Of a stretch of 64,000 nt of DNA, positions 41,635 to 62,906 are shown piece after piece. The notes below the pieces were generated by a model. It had not been told where the DNA came from. It ran no database searches and saw only the letters and a program-made list of their open reading frames with translations. The position numbers and the translations under genes were made by a program. Positions within the stretch are counted from its first letter, which is position 1. Every line of letters begins with the position of its first letter. The stretch is from Flavobacteriaceae bacterium (GTDB lineage: Bacteria > Bacteroidota > Bacteroidia > Flavobacteriales > Flavobacteriaceae), in the NCBI GenBank assembly GCA_029248185.1, contig JAQWJV010000009.1, positions 1 through 64,000 on the forward strand. The letters run 5' to 3'.

Positions 41635-43305
41635 CTAATTATTTTGTTTAGCCCAAGTATCTCTAAGACCGACAGTCTTATTAAAAACTAGTTCTTTCTC
41701 TGTCGAATCAGGATCGACAACAAAGTAGCCCAAACGTTGAAACTGTAAGTTGTCAAAAGGCTTTGCTGTCTTTAAACTGGGCTCAACAAAGGCTTTAATT
41801 ACAGTGAGAGATTCTGGGTTTACATGAGATTTGAAGTCAACATCTTTATCTTGATCTGGGGCAGGTACATTAAATAAACGATCATAAAGCCTCACCTCTG
41901 CACTCAAAGCATGTGCTTCTGAAACCCAATGAAGCGTTCCTTTGACCTTGCGCATACTCGACTCACTCCCGCTGCCGCTTTTGCTCTCAGGATCATAAGT
42001 ACAGATAATTTCTGTAATCTTTCCAGAAGCATCTTTTACAACCGATTCTCCTTTAATAATATATCCGTTTTTTAGGCGTACTTCTTTGTCAATTGTTAAT
42101 CTGAAGAACTTGCGGTTTGCTTCCTCTTTAAAGTCTTCCCGTTCAATCAAAAGGTATTTTGAAAAGGGAACTTTACGAAATCCTAATTCCGGCTGCTCTG
42201 GATTAATTTCTCCATCTAAGTACTCTTCTTTTCCCTCTGGATAATTAGAGATGGTTAGCTTAACGGGATCTAAAACAGCCATTACCCTGGGCGCTTTCAA
42301 GTTTAAATCTTCCCGTACTGAATATTCCAATAAAGACATGTCTATTACATTGTCTCTTTTAGCGACTCCTGCAGCATCAACAAAATTTCTTAATGAGGTA
42401 GGCGTATAGCCTCGTCTGCGTAAACCTGCAATGGTTGGCATTCTGGGATCGTCCCAGTCTTGAACAACGCCTTCTTGTATCAATTCCATAAGCTTACGCT
42501 TACTGGTAACGGTATAAGATAAGTTCATGCGTGCAAACTCTCTTTGTTTAGGTGCTATTTTGTCCAAAGGCGCTAGTGCTTCTAGAAACCATTCATAAAG
42601 GTCTCTATGAGGCTTAAATTCTAAAGAACATAAAGAATGAGACACCTGCTCAATATAGTCTGACTCCCCGTGCGTCCAATCATATAATGGATAAATACAC
42701 CACTGATCTCCCGTTCTATGATGTGTTTTATAAAGAATGCGATACATCACGGGATCACGAAGCAACATGTTGGATGCGGCCATATCTATTTTGGCACGAA
42801 GCACATGAGAACCCTCTGGGTGCTTCCCGACTTTCATCTCTTCAAAAAGAGTTTGATTTTCGGAAATTGATCGGTCTCTAAACGGACTATGGGTTCCTTG
42901 TAATGTGGGTGTCCCCTTTTGTGCGGCTATGGTTTCTGAATTTTGAGAATCTACATAGGCCAAACCCTTAGAAATCAAGTCCTGGGCCCAAAGGTATAAT
43001 TGATCGAAATAATCTGAAGCATAACATTCTAAGTCCCACTGATACCCCAACCACGCGATATTTTCCTTGATGGCATCTACAAATTGTTGTTCTTCCTTCG
43101 CTGGATTGGTATCATCGAAACGCAAATTTACAGGGGCATTATAACGCTCTCCTAAGTTAAAATTTAAGCAAATGGCCTTAACATGACCAATGTGTAAATA
43201 TCCGTTGGGTTCTGGAGGGAAGCGAAAGCGAAGGTTTTCTTTAGAAAACCCGGATGTTAAATCTTCCTCGATGATGTGCTCTATAAAATGTAAGGGACGT
43301 TCCAT
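41635..43305 (-). CDS. glnS: Glutaminyl-tRNA synthetase
   Basis: A 556-residue class Ib synthetase. The HIGH motif is PPEPNGYLHIGHVKAICLNF (~31-50) and the KMSKS equivalent is VTSKRKLMEL. MPTIAGLRRRGYTPTSLRNF and the beta-barrel anticodon domain (YFVVDPDSTEKELVFNKTVG) are typical. It means Gln-tRNA is made directly, so GatCAB would be needed at most for Asn. Convergent with the SPFH gene (1 bp gap); divergent to folB. Confidence 0.97.
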   Translation of the reverse strand: MERPLHFIEHIIEEDLTSGFSKENLRFRFPPEPNGYLHIGHVKAICLNFNLGERYNAPVNLRFDDTNPAKEEQQFVDAIKENIAWLGYQWDLECYASDYFDQLYLWAQDLISKGLAYVDSQNSETIAAQKGTPTLQGTHSPFRDRSISENQTLFEEMKVGKHPEGSHVLRAKIDMAASNMLLRDPVMYRILYKTHHRTGDQWCIYPLYDWTHGESDYIEQVSHSLCSLEFKPHRDLYEWFLEALAPLDKIAPKQREFARMNLSYTVTSKRKLMELIQEGVVQDWDDPRMPTIAGLRRRGYTPTSLRNFVDAAGVAKRDNVIDMSLLEYSVREDLNLKAPRVMAVLDPVKLTISNYPEGKEEYLDGEINPEQPELGFRKVPFSKYLLIEREDFKEEANRKFFRLTIDKEVRLKNGYIIKGESVVKDASGKITEIICTYDPESKSGSGSESSMRKVKGTLHWVSEAHALSAEVRLYDRLFNVPAPDQDKDVDFKSHVNPESLTVIKAFVEPSLKTAKPFDNLQFQRLGYFVVDPDSTEKELVFNKTVGLRDTWAKQNN

Positions 43306-43387: not shown

Positions 43388-43762
43388 ATGGGAAAGATTT
43401 ATTTAAAAAACATTCGCTTATACGCTTTTCATGGCTGTATGGATGAAGAAGAAAAAATAGGGAGCGATTATGTTGTAAATGTCGTTGTTGATACTAACTT
43501 GGACCAATCTTCAAAAAGCGACCAACTCAAGGACACCGTTGATTATGTCGCCTTACATTCGATTGTAAAAAGTGAGATGGAACAACGCGCTAAATTACTA
43601 GAACACGTTGCTGATCGGATACTAATACGAATTATGAAAGAGCACCCAAGCGTTGAAAAAGCAAGCGTGAAAGTGGCAAAAAAGAACCCTCCCATAGGTG
43701 GAAATGTAGAAGAAGTAGCCGTAAAAAGAGAACTGCGGAGATCAGCTTTAAAATTCAATTAA
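43388..43762 (+). CDS. folB: Dihydroneopterin aldolase
   Basis: A 124-residue enzyme of the T-fold family converting dihydroneopterin to 6-hydroxymethyl-dihydropterin in folate synthesis. The start is ATG 43388 (MGKIYLKNIRLYAFHGC); the frame is open further upstream to 43190, but that part is antisense to glnS. Motifs include LYAFHGCMDEEEKIGSDYVV, DTVDYVALHSIV and the C-terminal VKVAKKNPPIGG. The pterin branch thus looks intact while the p-aminobenzoate genes at 4.2-5.8 kb are broken. Confidence 0.93.
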   Translation: MGKIYLKNIRLYAFHGCMDEEEKIGSDYVVNVVVDTNLDQSSKSDQLKDTVDYVALHSIVKSEMEQRAKLLEHVADRILIRIMKEHPSVEKASVKVAKKNPPIGGNVEEVAVKRELRRSALKFN

Positions 43763-43783: not shown

Positions 43784-43854
43784 GGCATCGTGGCCGAGTG
43801 GCTAGGCAGAGCTCTGAAAAAGCTTGTACAGCGGTTCGAATCCGCTCGATGCCT
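43784..43854 (+). tRNA. tRNA with tRNA-Cys body but GAA (Phe) anticodon
   Basis: A full 71-nt cloverleaf without encoded CCA. The acceptor stem is GGCATCG paired with CGATGCC, with discriminator T73. The D arm is GCCGAGTGGCTAGGC, the anticodon stem GAGCT/AGCTT with loop CTGAAAA, the variable loop GTAC, and the T arm AGCGG-TTCGAAT-CCGCT. The anticodon at loop positions 34-36 is GAA, which reads Phe codons. Length 71, U73, the short D loop and the GTAC variable loop are the layout of bacterial tRNA-Cys, whose loop would be CTGCAAA. A single C35-to-A change would explain it. A scanner would call tRNA-Phe. Confidence 0.85.
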
Positions 43855-43856
43855 CT

Positions 43857-44543
43857 TTATTCTTCGATTATAATCTTTCCCAACAAATTCGCCTGTGTAA
43901 TTTGCTTTAATGGTTTTCCATAAACCCGTAACACACCACCGCCTACAACTTTGGCTTCAAGCAGGTTTGTCGCCATAATGTGAGCATAACCCCCTAAGAA
44001 ACTATTAATTTTACTTTGTTGTGTTGTTAGTTTTTCTGCATCGCAGCTTCCACTTGAATTTAAGGATAAATTAAAATTTGTTGCTTTACCATTCAAATGC
44101 ATTCTTCCAGCTGTGTTAATAACGGCATCCAAACGATCTACATCTACTTTTAAAGTAACTACCGCTCCGATTTTTGCTTCGACTTTTATACTTGTTTGCT
44201 TTATCGGTTCACCCGATAAAGTAACACCTTGATGCGCAACTATTCGGTCTAGAGGTTCACTGTGGTATAATTCTATATAAGTATAGCCTGGGTTTAAAAC
44301 GCTTTTTGCAGTTAATTTAATTTTGATGATTTTATTTTTAATAGATATTACCACATCGTCTTTGTGATCCCCATAAACTACCGCTTTATTCACTTCCGAT
44401 GGAATTAATTTAATATCTAAAGCAGAATACACTTTAACGCCATGAAAAGGGCTCATTGTAAGGGTTCTTCTATCAAGATCCTGAGAGAAGAGTGATAAAA
44501 AATTAAAAATAAGTACAAAAAATGAAATGCTTTTTTTTAACAT
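43857..44543 (-). CDS. Secreted GIN-domain (DUF2807) protein
   Basis: Start taken at ATG 44543 (MLKKSISFFVLIFNFLSLFS), giving 228 residues with a signal peptide; the upstream extension to 44573 is unlikely. The mature part is a right-handed beta-helix-like repeat domain: GVKVYSALDIKLIPSEV, VVTLKVDVDRLDAVINTAGR, FNLSLNSSGSCDAEKL. This matches the 'putative auto-transporter adhesin, head GIN' family DUF2807. It is widespread in Bacteroidota and of unknown function. Located 10 bp downstream of rnr. Confidence 0.82.
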   Translation of the reverse strand: MLKKSISFFVLIFNFLSLFSQDLDRRTLTMSPFHGVKVYSALDIKLIPSEVNKAVVYGDHKDDVVISIKNKIIKIKLTAKSVLNPGYTYIELYHSEPLDRIVAHQGVTLSGEPIKQTSIKVEAKIGAVVTLKVDVDRLDAVINTAGRMHLNGKATNFNLSLNSSGSCDAEKLTTQQSKINSFLGGYAHIMATNLLEAKVVGGGVLRVYGKPLKQITQANLLGKIIIEE

Positions 44544-44553
44544 AAAACAAAAA

Positions 44554-46707
44554 TTAAACCGGTATAAAATCAAGAAAACGGCGGAGAATATTTACTTTTT
44601 TAACTTTAATAGTAATCGTATCACCCAACTGAAATACTTTTTTTGTTCGCTCACCAATAAAGGCATGCTGACGGTCGTCGTAGTGATAAAAGTCTCCTTT
44701 TATATCAATTATGCGAATCATCCCTTCGCATTTATTTTCAATTAATTCAACATATAAACCGCGATCTGTTACCCCAGAAATCACGCCCTCAAAATGTTGG
44801 CCAACCTTATCTTCCATAAAAACCATTTGCATATATTTTATAGAATCACGCTCTGCTCGGGTTGCAAGTTGTTCTCTCTGTGATGCGTGTTGACATGCTT
44901 CTTCAATGGTTTGTTTTGAGGGATACGGTTTTTTATCTAAATAGGTTTGTAAAAGACGATGTACCATTACATCGGGATACCTTCTTATGGGAGAAGTAAA
45001 ATGAGTATAATGCGAAAAAGCTAAACCATAGTGCCCAATATTTTCTGTTGAATACTCCGCTTTTGACATGCATCTAAGGGTTAAGGTATCGATTAAGTTT
45101 TGCTCTCTTTTTCCGTTACAGGCAAGCAGTAATCCATTGATTTCACTACTCACATTTTTTTTGTTGGGGTTGAAAGAATATCCAAAAGGAGAAATTGTTT
45201 GCTTTAAATTGAATAATTTTTGTTCATCGGGATTATCGTGAATTCGATAAACAAATGGCGGCAAGGGCTGAAGGGTGTTAATAAATGCCGCTACTTTTTT
45301 ATTGGCTAAAAGCATAAATTCTTCGATTAATTTATGCGCGTCTTTAGAGGTTTTAAAATAAACAGAGTCAGGGTTGTTTTCTTCATCTAAATGAAAATTA
45401 ACTTCAACACGATCAAAAGAAATTGCTCCATTTTTCATCCGCTTATTGCGCCATGTTTTAGCTTGATAATCTAAAATATTTATGGCTTCAAAAACAGGAT
45501 TTGATATTGAATATGTTTCTCCTGTAAGAGAAACCTCTGCATCAACTTGTTTCGTTTGATTCTCAATTACATGTTGTACTTCTTCATAAGCAAAACGATA
45601 GTCGGAATTGATAACCGTTCTTCCATACCATTCATCTTGAACCTGTCCTTCCTTGTTTAAGGTAAAAACAGCAGAAAAAGTGAATTTATCCTCTTTAGGT
45701 CTTAATGAACATAAACCATTAGATAAAACTTCAGGTAACATGGGCACTACCCGATCGACCAAATAAACAGATGTTGCACGATCATAAGCTTCTTGATCCA
45801 AAAGGGTATTTGGTTCTACATAGTATGAAACGTCTGCTATGTGAATTCCTACTTCGTACGTTCCATTGGATAATACTTTAAAAGACAGGGCATCATCAAA
45901 ATCTTTGGCCGTTATAGGATCTATTGTAAAAGTCAAAACATCTCTAAAATCTCTCCTTTTTTTTATTTCTTTTGTGTCTAAGTCTTTATTAATTTTATCG
46001 GCAGCATCTTCAATTTCTTTTGGAAACTCATACGGCAACCCGTGATCATGTAATATTGCATGAATTTCAGTTTCTTTTTCGCCTGGTAAACCTAGACTCT
46101 TGATAATTGTAGCTGAGGGTGAATCTCTTTTTTCTTCCCATTCTTTAAAAACAGCGACTACTTTTTCACCGTCCTTGTAATCTTTTAATTCATTTCGCTC
46201 TATAAAGAGATCTGTATACATTCTCCCGTTTCTACATAAAACAAATCCAAAATCTTTATGCCGTTCAAAAACACCTACATATTCCTTATTCGCACGTTCT
46301 AATATTGTTTCAACATGAGCTTGAGCTATTTTATTCTTTCGTTGTATACTTATTTCAACAGTATCTCCGTGTAATCCTTTATTTAAAAACTTTCTTGGAA
46401 CGACAAGTTCATCGTCATATCCTTCAATACGAACAACCCCTTTGCCGGAGGGAATTATGGTTAATTGGGTTGTAAAAAGTTCTAATGATGTAGCGTTAAA
46501 CTGATATTGTCCTTTTTTGGATGACGTTATTTTCTCCTGACGATATAGCGTGTTAAGAACTTTAATAATATTGTTTCTCCCTTTGGTATCTTTAATATCC
46601 AAAGCTGCAGCGATTTGCTTGTAATTAAGAAGAACCTTCGGACGCTTTTTAAAAAGCGATAAAATTTTAAACTCTAAATGGGATTTTTCTTTTTTCTTTT
46701 TGGACAT
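44554..46707 (-). CDS. rnr: Ribonuclease R
   Basis: A 717-residue 3'-5' exoribonuclease. Start at ATG 46707 (MSKKKKEKSHLEFKILSLF) with a -7 element 20 bp upstream. Order: N-terminal helix-turn-helix (~10-70), cold-shock domains (~75-240), and the RNB catalytic domain with FTIDPITAKDFDDALSF, where the Asp cluster binds Mg. Next is the HYTHFTSPIRRYPDVMVHRL block, and a C-terminal S1 domain (~630-717, FEGVISGVTDRGLYVELIEN). Degrades structured RNA and rRNA fragments. Confidence 0.96.
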   Translation of the reverse strand: MSKKKKEKSHLEFKILSLFKKRPKVLLNYKQIAAALDIKDTKGRNNIIKVLNTLYRQEKITSSKKGQYQFNATSLELFTTQLTIIPSGKGVVRIEGYDDELVVPRKFLNKGLHGDTVEISIQRKNKIAQAHVETILERANKEYVGVFERHKDFGFVLCRNGRMYTDLFIERNELKDYKDGEKVVAVFKEWEEKRDSPSATIIKSLGLPGEKETEIHAILHDHGLPYEFPKEIEDAADKINKDLDTKEIKKRRDFRDVLTFTIDPITAKDFDDALSFKVLSNGTYEVGIHIADVSYYVEPNTLLDQEAYDRATSVYLVDRVVPMLPEVLSNGLCSLRPKEDKFTFSAVFTLNKEGQVQDEWYGRTVINSDYRFAYEEVQHVIENQTKQVDAEVSLTGETYSISNPVFEAINILDYQAKTWRNKRMKNGAISFDRVEVNFHLDEENNPDSVYFKTSKDAHKLIEEFMLLANKKVAAFINTLQPLPPFVYRIHDNPDEQKLFNLKQTISPFGYSFNPNKKNVSSEINGLLLACNGKREQNLIDTLTLRCMSKAEYSTENIGHYGLAFSHYTHFTSPIRRYPDVMVHRLLQTYLDKKPYPSKQTIEEACQHASQREQLATRAERDSIKYMQMVFMEDKVGQHFEGVISGVTDRGLYVELIENKCEGMIRIIDIKGDFYHYDDRQHAFIGERTKKVFQLGDTITIKVKKVNILRRFLDFIPV

Positions 46708-60022: not shown

Positions 60023-60073
60023 CGGCTTTGGTTGTTGGGATTTTTAAAAATTATAAAAACCACTTAATTTTTT

Positions 60074-60081
60074 TATATTTG
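60074..60081 (+). promoter_or_regulatory. -7 promoter element of the DUF4389 operon
   Basis: TATATTTG, a perfect match, 29 bp before the ATG at 60111. It would drive the run of rightward genes toward dusB. Confidence 0.5.
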
Positions 60082-60110
60082 AATTTACACATTACTAAAT
60101 CTTATACATT

Positions 60111-60701
60111 ATGAAATTAACAGTAACTTATCAAGAGCGTTATTCGCGTTCTGAGCTTTTATTAAGAAGTATTTTTGGCGTCTTTTACATTGTAATGCCT
60201 CATTTTTTTCTTCTCATTTTTATGGGTATTTGGGGCAGTATCTTGTCCTTTATTGCCCTTATTTCTATTTTGTTAACAGGGCGATATCCTGAAAGCATGT
60301 TTGAATATCAAGTCCAATTATTGCGATGGCAATTAAGAGTTAATTCACGAATACAAAACCTTTCTGATGGCTATCCTGCCTTTGGTTTAAATGGTACGGA
60401 TGAATATACTTCTTTAGAAATAGAATATCCAGAAAGAATTAGTAGGGGAACAACTTTATTGCGATTGTTATTCGGAATTTTTTATGTCATTCTTCCTCAT
60501 GGATTTATCCTTTATTTTAGAGTTCTTTGGGGAGTTATACTTCAAATCTATGCTTGGGTTTCAGTTTTGTTTTCTGCCAAGTTTCCAGAGAGTGCGCACA
60601 CCTTTCTGGTCGGAACGCTACGCTGGCAGTATAGAGTGAATTTATACATGGGAAACATGACAGATGTTTACCCTCCTTTTTCTAGTAAAGAAGAGGTTTA
60701 A
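60111..60701 (+). CDS. DUF4389 membrane protein made of two tandem repeats
   Basis: A 196-residue protein with two copies of a ~90-residue unit. Copy 1 (~3-92) reads RYSRSELLLRSIFGVFYIVM and LRWQLRVNSRIQNLSDGYPA. Copy 2 (~105-192) reads RISRGTTLLRLLFGIFYVIL and LRWQYRVNLYMGNMTDVYPP. Each contains two hydrophobic helices around PH-F and W-G, and a conserved LRWQ-x-RVN. It matches DUF4389, unknown function, often beside DUF4870-like proteins as here. The stop is 1 bp from the next ATG. Confidence 0.8.
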   Translation: MKLTVTYQERYSRSELLLRSIFGVFYIVMPHFFLLIFMGIWGSILSFIALISILLTGRYPESMFEYQVQLLRWQLRVNSRIQNLSDGYPAFGLNGTDEYTSLEIEYPERISRGTTLLRLLFGIFYVILPHGFILYFRVLWGVILQIYAWVSVLFSAKFPESAHTFLVGTLRWQYRVNLYMGNMTDVYPPFSSKEEV

Positions 60702-60702
60702 G

Positions 60703-61227
60703 ATGTCTGCTGAAAAATATGTGAAACTTCCTCAGCCTCAGGATCTCTCTGAGCGAGAAAAGGAAGATGCAATGGGAGCTTATTTGATGATGTTTGCGGC
60801 ATTGGCAACAAGCCTCCCACTGCCAATCATCAATTTAATTGCAGCGATTGTATATTATTATATCAATCGGAAAAAAGGAAGGTTTATCCACTTTCATTGT
60901 TTGCAATCACTTCTATCACAGCTACCGACTACTCTTGTTAACTGGGGTCTTTTGTTTTGGGCGCTTCAAATTTTTTTCTTTGATAATTTTGAAGTGGATG
61001 ATTGGTTTTATGCTTATTTAGGCTTTGCCATTTTGGCAAATCTTATCTATTTTATTTTTAGCATTATGGCCGCCATTAGAGCCAGAAAAGGGATTTTTAT
61101 GTATTTCCTTTTCTTTGGTAGTTATGCATATCATCGGGTATATGGAGCGTCAAACGAGTTGAATTATGACAACGAAAAACTTCAAAACCCCAAAACGCAA
61201 AAAGTAAATAGCCCCCCTTTTCTATGA
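60703..61227 (+). CDS. DUF4870-like membrane protein
   Basis: A 174-residue protein with about four helices. The start is ATG 60703 (MSAEKYVKLPQPQDLSEREK); the longer frame from 60664 overlaps the previous gene. PIINLIAAIVYYYINRKKGR then FIHFHCLQSLLSQLPTTLVN matches the family pattern P-x-IVW-x(n)-K-x-S-x-F-x2-H-x2-Q. Function unknown. Coupled with DUF4389 upstream and overlapping the M48 gene by 4 bp. Confidence 0.72.
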   Translation: MSAEKYVKLPQPQDLSEREKEDAMGAYLMMFAALATSLPLPIINLIAAIVYYYINRKKGRFIHFHCLQSLLSQLPTTLVNWGLLFWALQIFFFDNFEVDDWFYAYLGFAILANLIYFIFSIMAAIRARKGIFMYFLFFGSYAYHRVYGASNELNYDNEKLQNPKTQKVNSPPFL

Positions 61228-62039
61228 ATAAAAAGATTTTCATTGAGCTAGTTAAATCACTTTTTTTATTTGGAGGAATTCTTGTGTTGTTCTATTTTGG
61301 GATTCAGTTCCTTTCGGAAGACAAAAAAGTTAGATGGTTTGCTTCTGATTCTGAATTCATTTCTTACGAAAAAGAGATACAATTAGGGGATTTAATCGCT
61401 GAGTATATCATTGAAAAAGACAAAAAGAAACGCATTCAAAATCAACTGATTGACTCGGTCGTTTGGGTGGTGAGTTCTCATTTACAAAAGGAATTGAATC
61501 TAACAGAATATGACTATAAAATTCAGGTTATAGATAGCCCTGAAGTAAATGCCTTTACCCTCCCAGGAGGAAGGATTTATGTAAATAAGGGTTTATTGAA
61601 ATTTTGTGATTCGGCAGAACAATTAGCGGCAGTATTGGCACATGAAATGGGTCATGTTGAAAAAAGACATACAATTTCTAAGTTGGTAAAAGAATTTGGA
61701 TTGAAAATTGTTTTTTCCGTTTTGGGGGGTGATGTTCTCTTATTAAATGAGTTATGGGAAACCGTTTTGTCCTCAAAATTTGATCGCTATCAGGAAAAAG
61801 AAGCAGATCAATTTGCACTTAATCTACTTGAAAAAGCACATATTTCTCCAACGGCAATAGCCTCTTTTTTTAGAAAATTAAACCGGCATAATTTAGATTA
61901 TAATGAAAAAATAGAACTCTTGATGACCCATCCACATAACAATTCAAGGATCAAGCGTTCTTTGGAGTATCAAACACAAAAAGATTTTAAACCTAAACGA
62001 ATCAATATAGATTGGAAAAACATCAAAAATAAATTTTAA
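61224..62039 (+). CDS. Membrane-anchored M48 family metallopeptidase
   Basis: A 271-residue protein. N-terminal membrane helix (LVKSLFLFGGILVLFYFGIQ), then an M48 catalytic domain: NAFTLPGGRIYVNKGLLKFC, the zinc site AAVLAHEMGHVEKRH and the third-ligand region KEADQFALNLLEKA. This is the HtpX/Oma1/BepA-like superfamily, acting in envelope protein quality control. Third gene of the rightward operon. Confidence 0.88.
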   Translation: MNKKIFIELVKSLFLFGGILVLFYFGIQFLSEDKKVRWFASDSEFISYEKEIQLGDLIAEYIIEKDKKKRIQNQLIDSVVWVVSSHLQKELNLTEYDYKIQVIDSPEVNAFTLPGGRIYVNKGLLKFCDSAEQLAAVLAHEMGHVEKRHTISKLVKEFGLKIVFSVLGGDVLLLNELWETVLSSKFDRYQEKEADQFALNLLEKAHISPTAIASFFRKLNRHNLDYNEKIELLMTHPHNNSRIKRSLEYQTQKDFKPKRINIDWKNIKNKF

Positions 62040-62042
62040 TTT

Positions 62043-62906
62043 ATGAAAAGGGGAATTCTAATTTTAAGAATAGCATTCGCACTTAGTTTCCTTTTTTCAG
62101 CCTACACCAAGTTTGTTGCTCCTGGCTTTTTTGAAATAACCCTTATGGATCAGGGATTGGCAAATAGTAGAGTATGGGCGTCTCATTTGACACGCTTTTT
62201 TATTGGCTTGGAATTTGGCTTGGGATTGCTATTACTTTTTCCAATTCATACCAAAAAGATTACAGCCTTAGCCTTATTTCTTCTCACGGGATTTACAGTA
62301 CACCTTCTATATCTTTGGGGCATAGGCGATACAGCAAATTGTGGTTGTTTTGGAGAAATGATCTCTATGACTCCGGCAGAGTCGATGCTTAAAAACAGCA
62401 TTCTCATCAGTATAGGAGCTTTTTTGTATTTAAAATCACCAAAAAGAAAAAGGGGAGGCTTGTTTTTAGGCATTGTTTTTTTAGTTGTCATTTTAAGTCA
62501 ATGGTTTTTACTTCCCATACCCAATTCTAGCGAGATGTCCTTTTCTACCTATACTCATTTCGAAAATGTAGGTCGTGTAGACCTTTCTAAAGGGGAAAAA
62601 TGGATTGCCGTTTTTAATTTAAGTTGTGAACATTGTCAGGAAGCAGCAATCGAAATGGGAAAACTACAACGGGAATTAGGGGTCTCTTTTCCTGACGTAT
62701 ATGCCCTTTATTACAAAGAAGGCGTTTTTTCAGTAAAAGATTTTGAAGTGCTCACAAAAGCAAAGTTTCCCTATCATATGATTGACGGGAATATTTTTTT
62801 TGATCTGATAGGAGAACACCCCCCACGGTTATATAAATTAATGGACGGAAAGGTTTCAGAATTTTGGGATCACGGCTTAAGCGATGCTTTGAAACAAAGT
62901 TATTAG
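62043..62906 (+). CDS. MauE/DoxX-like membrane protein fused to a thioredoxin-like domain
   Basis: A 287-residue protein with a four-helix MauE/DoxX domain (~1-145) that ends with the redox motif NCGCFGEM. A further helix (LFLGIVFLVVILSQWFL) leads to a C-terminal ~110-residue thioredoxin-like part with the motif NLSCEHCQEAAIEM, a CxxC. The pairing suggests electron passage from a quinone/VKOR-like membrane core to a periplasmic thiol exchanger. This is inferred from domains; direction and partner are unknown. It begins 3 bp after the M48 gene. Confidence 0.78.
   Translation: MKRGILILRIAFALSFLFSAYTKFVAPGFFEITLMDQGLANSRVWASHLTRFFIGLEFGLGLLLLFPIHTKKITALALFLLTGFTVHLLYLWGIGDTANCGCFGEMISMTPAESMLKNSILISIGAFLYLKSPKRKRGGLFLGIVFLVVILSQWFLLPIPNSSEMSFSTYTHFENVGRVDLSKGEKWIAVFNLSCEHCQEAAIEMGKLQRELGVSFPDVYALYYKEGVFSVKDFEVLTKAKFPYHMIDGNIFFDLIGEHPPRLYKLMDGKVSEFWDHGLSDALKQSY

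Follow-up and report, generated by a model that had tools for sequence, protein, structure and literature searches.

The window, that is, the whole 64,000-nucleotide stretch of contig JAQWJV010000009.1 that was analyzed, contains a single tRNA according to ARAGORN, which placed it at 43784-43855 on the forward strand, labelled it tRNA-Phe and read the anticodon gaa at position 33. The Rfam model RF00005 matched from 43784 to 43854 with 60.4 bits, compared with a gathering score of 29. Reading of the sequence revealed an acceptor stem of 7 bp, a D arm of 15 nt, the anticodon loop CTGAAAA, the variable loop GTAC, the pair G27-U43, A59 and the discriminator U73, and the CCA end is not encoded. 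In a free fold, the minimum-energy form was partly a cloverleaf, and the centroid was more so (z -2.27). An earlier note, made from the sequence alone, had described a tRNA-Cys scaffold with the anticodon GAA, U73, a 15-nt D arm and the loop GTAC; renewed reading of the sequence, ARAGORN and Rfam all agree with that description, and the presence of a tRNA with a GAA anticodon at this locus is confirmed. The tRNA had also been placed downstream of folB, and a PF02152 match indeed lies directly upstream. The start of folB was picked by eye as an ATG within an ORF of 190 aa. The features of the locus are compiled in Table 1.

Table 1. Positions of the tRNA gene, its diagnostic nucleotides and the neighboring genes in the window.
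Feature	Position	Strand	Evidence
Glutaminyl/glutamyl-tRNA synthetase gene (glnS-like), further upstream of the tRNA	41635..43305	-	Pfam PF00749, PF03950, PF20974
folB, dihydroneopterin aldolase, directly upstream of the tRNA	43388..43762	+	Pfam PF02152, E 5e-31, run on 43400-43759
tRNA gene with tRNA-Cys body and GAA anticodon	43784..43854	+	ARAGORN; Rfam RF00005, 60.4 bits; comparison with 32 genus relatives
Anticodon GAA (GCA in all relatives compared)	43816..43818	+	ARAGORN; relatives' loci
Position 35, A	43817	+	C in 32/32 genus relatives with the gene and in 107/107 GTDB stretches
Discriminator U73, cysteine identity element	43854	+	Sequence (T); PMC9976931
DUF2807 protein gene, downstream of the tRNA, on the opposite strand	43857..44573	-	Pfam PF10988

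Of the 37 genus relatives, 32 yielded an orthologous tRNA gene, whose anticodon was GCA in every case. For 24 of these 32 relatives, position 35 was the sole difference from the window tRNA, the other 70 positions being equal, while the remaining eight had one or two further differences (68 or 69 of the 71 positions shared). These orthologues thus show exactly what the earlier note had proposed, a tRNA-Cys body with one change of C35 to A. Five genus relatives (G002, G007, G008, G048 and G052) gave no match, perhaps owing to incompleteness, and are outside the 32. ARAGORN named tRNA-Cys gca at 29 of the 29 relatives' loci that were read (21 from the genus and eight from the order; seven more order-level matches were left out). 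The nearest relative by CysRS, G047 (97% identity), has the anticodon GCA, and its contig is collinear with the window contig and 92.4% identical over 22 kb. A single tRNA-Cys match was obtained in 31 of the 32 relatives; the remaining one, G013, had a full match plus a 52-nt fragment where one of its contigs begins. Because the relatives carry a single full match each, the changed gene is the ancestral tRNA-Cys gene.

The searches were extended to larger sets of genomes. In a scan of GTDB contigs that allowed A or C at position 35, C was present in all 107 stretches outside the window's assembly, and A solely in the window's copy. These 107 stretches match the window tRNA at the 69 other positions of the pattern, come from several genera as judged by their titles and include some of the genus relatives again, and the scan may omit records of the window's own or a very near genome. 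The exact GAA pattern occurred in one of 38 genus genomes, which was the window's own. A looser pattern, applied to 395 genomes of the order, retrieved GAA from one genome, again the window's own, and GCA from 101; because GCA was retrieved from only 101 of the 395, this pattern misses many tRNA-Cys genes, and one in 395 is no full census. The idea that GAA is common to the genus or the order was rejected, since it was not found outside the window's own genome in the genus, GTDB and order pattern searches. Relatives with the same GAA, which the earlier note had named as evidence against its reading, were not seen among the 32 genus relatives or the 107 GTDB stretches outside the assembly. Chance resemblance to tRNA-Cys is ruled out by the 70 other positions that equal tRNA-Cys(GCA) in 24 of the 32 genus relatives. 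The tRNA sequence had no match in viral contigs, and a search for a second genome of the window's species found none.

Compared with flavobacterial tRNA-Cys(GCA), the window tRNA shares the length, the stems, the 15-nt D arm, the variable loop and U73, but it has A instead of C at position 35. According to PMC9976931, the major cysteine determinants of E. coli and yeast are U73 and the anticodon GCA, and the common Phe identity set consists of G34, A35, A36 and A73. The window tRNA has U73 of the cysteine set, but GAA as sequenced in place of GCA; it has G34, A35 and A36 of the Phe set, but T at 43854 in place of A73. Without C35, part of a major cysteine determinant would be gone, and without A73, part of the Phe set. 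As written, the tRNA might be charged weakly by CysRS or PheRS. A normal tRNA-Phe(GAA) with A73 is present at G000:C12:82462 and equals the tRNA-Phe of the genus relatives G023 and G011. It has the anticodon in common with the window tRNA, which carries U73 instead; the bodies of the two differ, with 44 mismatches in an ungapped comparison with the tRNA-Phe of G023 or G011. Because this normal tRNA-Phe is present, a second tRNA-Phe(GAA) would bring no evident gain.

The assembly consists of 53 contigs with 1.9 Mb and is 89.46% complete. The Rfam survey, in which 150 of 165 first-look candidates were scored, yielded 26 tRNA matches, 25 of them above the cut-off, and ARAGORN named 25 tRNAs at the Rfam loci. 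No tRNA-Cys gca was among the 25 named tRNAs of this 89.46% complete assembly. A DNA search with the relatives' form of the gene, with E values up to 10 and a single first-look candidate, returned the window copy only and no second tRNA-Cys. However, tRNAs for Ala, Asn, Asp, Gln, Gly-TCC, Leu-TAA, Thr-GGT and Trp, which were seen in G023, were also not found, and therefore the failure to find a second tRNA-Cys carries little weight on its own. The single full tRNA-Cys match in each relative is stronger evidence.

Codon usage and the cognate synthetase were analyzed in the same genome. In 11 genes, there were 16 columns at which every relative compared has Cys and 87 all-Phe columns; the window genome encodes all 16 by TGT or TGC and all 87 by TTT or TTC. 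Under other thresholds and without G047, 17 Cys and 89 Phe columns were kept. A change of the genetic code was rejected on the basis of the 16 and 87 conserved columns. The CysRS of the window genome is intact. It was compared with the best 24 of 34 relatives with a CysRS match, the ten lowest-ranked being left out, and it had no private change at any of the 263 columns invariant in these 24 relatives; all five of its Cys residues are kept in 24 of 24. With no private change at these 263 columns, an adaptation of CysRS to the new anticodon was rejected as well. Because the Cys and Phe columns and CysRS are unchanged, the proteins still require Cys at the usual codons, and there is no sign of adaptation to the new anticodon. 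Ordinary Cys codon use and an intact, unchanged CysRS indicate that the cell needs a tRNA-Cys(GCA).

The base quality around the site was assessed by counting changes private to the window genome. Among 3140 first and second codon positions that do not vary elsewhere in the genus, two carried private changes, compared with three of 2755 for G047 and with 10, 5 and 7 of about 3150 for the three other genomes counted. Private amino-acid changes amounted to 10 of 1729, the ninth lowest value among 21 genomes. Across the aligned portions of 13 genes, the window's own branch had 234 synonymous codon changes and 27 non-synonymous ones, compared with 195 and 41, respectively, for the G047 branch (summed from the tabulated values). 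Changes of C to A plus G to T were not in excess, with 27 of 574 on the own branch versus 32 of 605 on the G047 branch. In the other tRNAs, the sole difference shared versus both G023 and G011 was a swapped base pair in tRNA-Met, which looks natural. Poor base quality of the whole contig as a cause of the A is thus not supported by the private changes, the codon changes or the C to A and G to T counts. These measures argue against a bad contig, but not against one bad base.

On the question of a sequencing error or a mutation in living cells, we infer that the A at 43817 is probably a wrong consensus base, with C35 read as A in one draft assembly, and does not mark a code-changing tRNA. A single consensus error is held to be most likely because a real change would deprive the genome of the one Cys tRNA that was found in it. 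A lone error that hits an anticodon is a rare event, and it is favored only since the alternative seems to cost the cell its Cys decoding. The locus would then be an ordinary and apparently single-copy tRNA-Cys gene of a flavobacterial genus, situated between folB and the DUF2807 gene. In the living cell, the tRNA would most likely read UGU and UGC with the anticodon GCA, and it would most likely be charged by the normal CysRS. The earlier note had considered an error or a second copy likely, which is in line with GCA at the same gene in all 32 genus relatives. In our judgement, a consensus error ranks before a true mutation together with an unseen second tRNA-Cys, and this in turn before a working recoded tRNA. 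When a draft genome shows an isolated anticodon change but its code and synthetase are unchanged, the reads should be consulted before recoding is claimed.

If the mutation were real, it could be tolerated through a second, intact tRNA-Cys(GCA) in the unassembled part of the genome, and the changed gene would be a decaying copy or encode a tRNA that carries a Phe anticodon and is charged poorly. The 89.46% completeness with 53 contigs, the several tRNAs of G023 that were not found and the local sequence quality, which looks good, are compatible with this possibility, but the relatives have one full tRNA-Cys match each, the scenario requires both a duplication on the window branch and a mutation that struck the ancestral copy, and no decay is seen elsewhere in the tRNA gene. 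We therefore consider it unlikely. It is very unlikely that the base is real in the fuller sense that the ancestral tRNA-Cys now has a Phe anticodon and is charged with Cys or Phe, that a second tRNA-Cys decodes cysteine and that Phe codons are at least slightly ambiguous. The earlier note had named both outcomes of such charging, Cys placed at Phe codons and an unusual Phe isoacceptor; neither gained support, given the apparently unchanged code, the unchanged invariant columns of CysRS and the presence of a normal tRNA-Phe.

Anticodon shifts by a single base have been described in animals and are rare among bacteria; for 61 Enterobacteriaceae, PMC3923123 gives one in section 7 and four in the discussion. 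The alloacceptor shifts described there (Rogers and Griffiths-Jones 2014) likewise involve a single-base change at position 35, the commonest site, in an orthologue at the same place. However, they were retained only if more than one test supported them, whereas the window case is one draft genome, and, unlike them, the window change removes the only Cys tRNA found in its assembly. Among the literature matches listed, none described a GAA anticodon in a bacterial tRNA-Cys. A true alloacceptor shift, in which the changed tRNA would be a substrate of PheRS and an additional Phe isoacceptor, with another tRNA reading cysteine, could build on the presence of all three Phe anticodon bases, and yeast PheRS charges a yeast tRNA-Tyr that was given GAA (PMC9976931). 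But A73 of the common Phe set is absent, a normal tRNA-Phe already exists, no compensating change was seen in the tRNA body, such shifts are few in the bacterial survey cited above, and this explanation also requires an unseen tRNA-Cys, so that it is highly improbable. If the changed base were real, an anticodon shift would have been caught in the act, in a bacterium with few tRNA genes.

Least credible of all would be a mistranslating tRNA that is still charged by CysRS and places Cys at Phe codons. In its favor, the tRNA-Cys body, including U73, is preserved, but CysRS is unchanged at its invariant columns and all conserved Phe (87 of 87) and Cys (16 of 16) columns are unchanged. A Phe-to-Cys change across the proteome should be very harmful. 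Furthermore, the lost C35 belongs to a major determinant of cysteine identity (PMC9976931).

Additional observations were made in the assembly. At G000:C33:5951-5985 on the reverse strand, inside a 69-kb contig, a gene resembling tRNA-Asn(GTT) is represented by its 5' half, which scored 27.9 bits over model positions 10-42; an intact tRNA-Asn was not found in the assembly by ARAGORN at the Rfam loci. The partial gene could be the leftover of an element integrated at tRNA-Asn. Two tRNA-Leu(TAG) genes of identical sequence, at G000:C1:17216-17297 and G000:C2:27138-27219, are situated at the ends of two contigs or within 40 bases of them, and may therefore represent a single gene located where the assembly broke. 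In the window itself, positions 60032-62075 form a segment of about 2 kb where G047 has about 90 bases between the aligned flanks; in G023, a shorter stretch covers window positions 60048-62888. The segment contains ORFs of 196, 187 and 271 aa, the last of which has an HExxH motif that we take to be like that of an M48-type peptidase.
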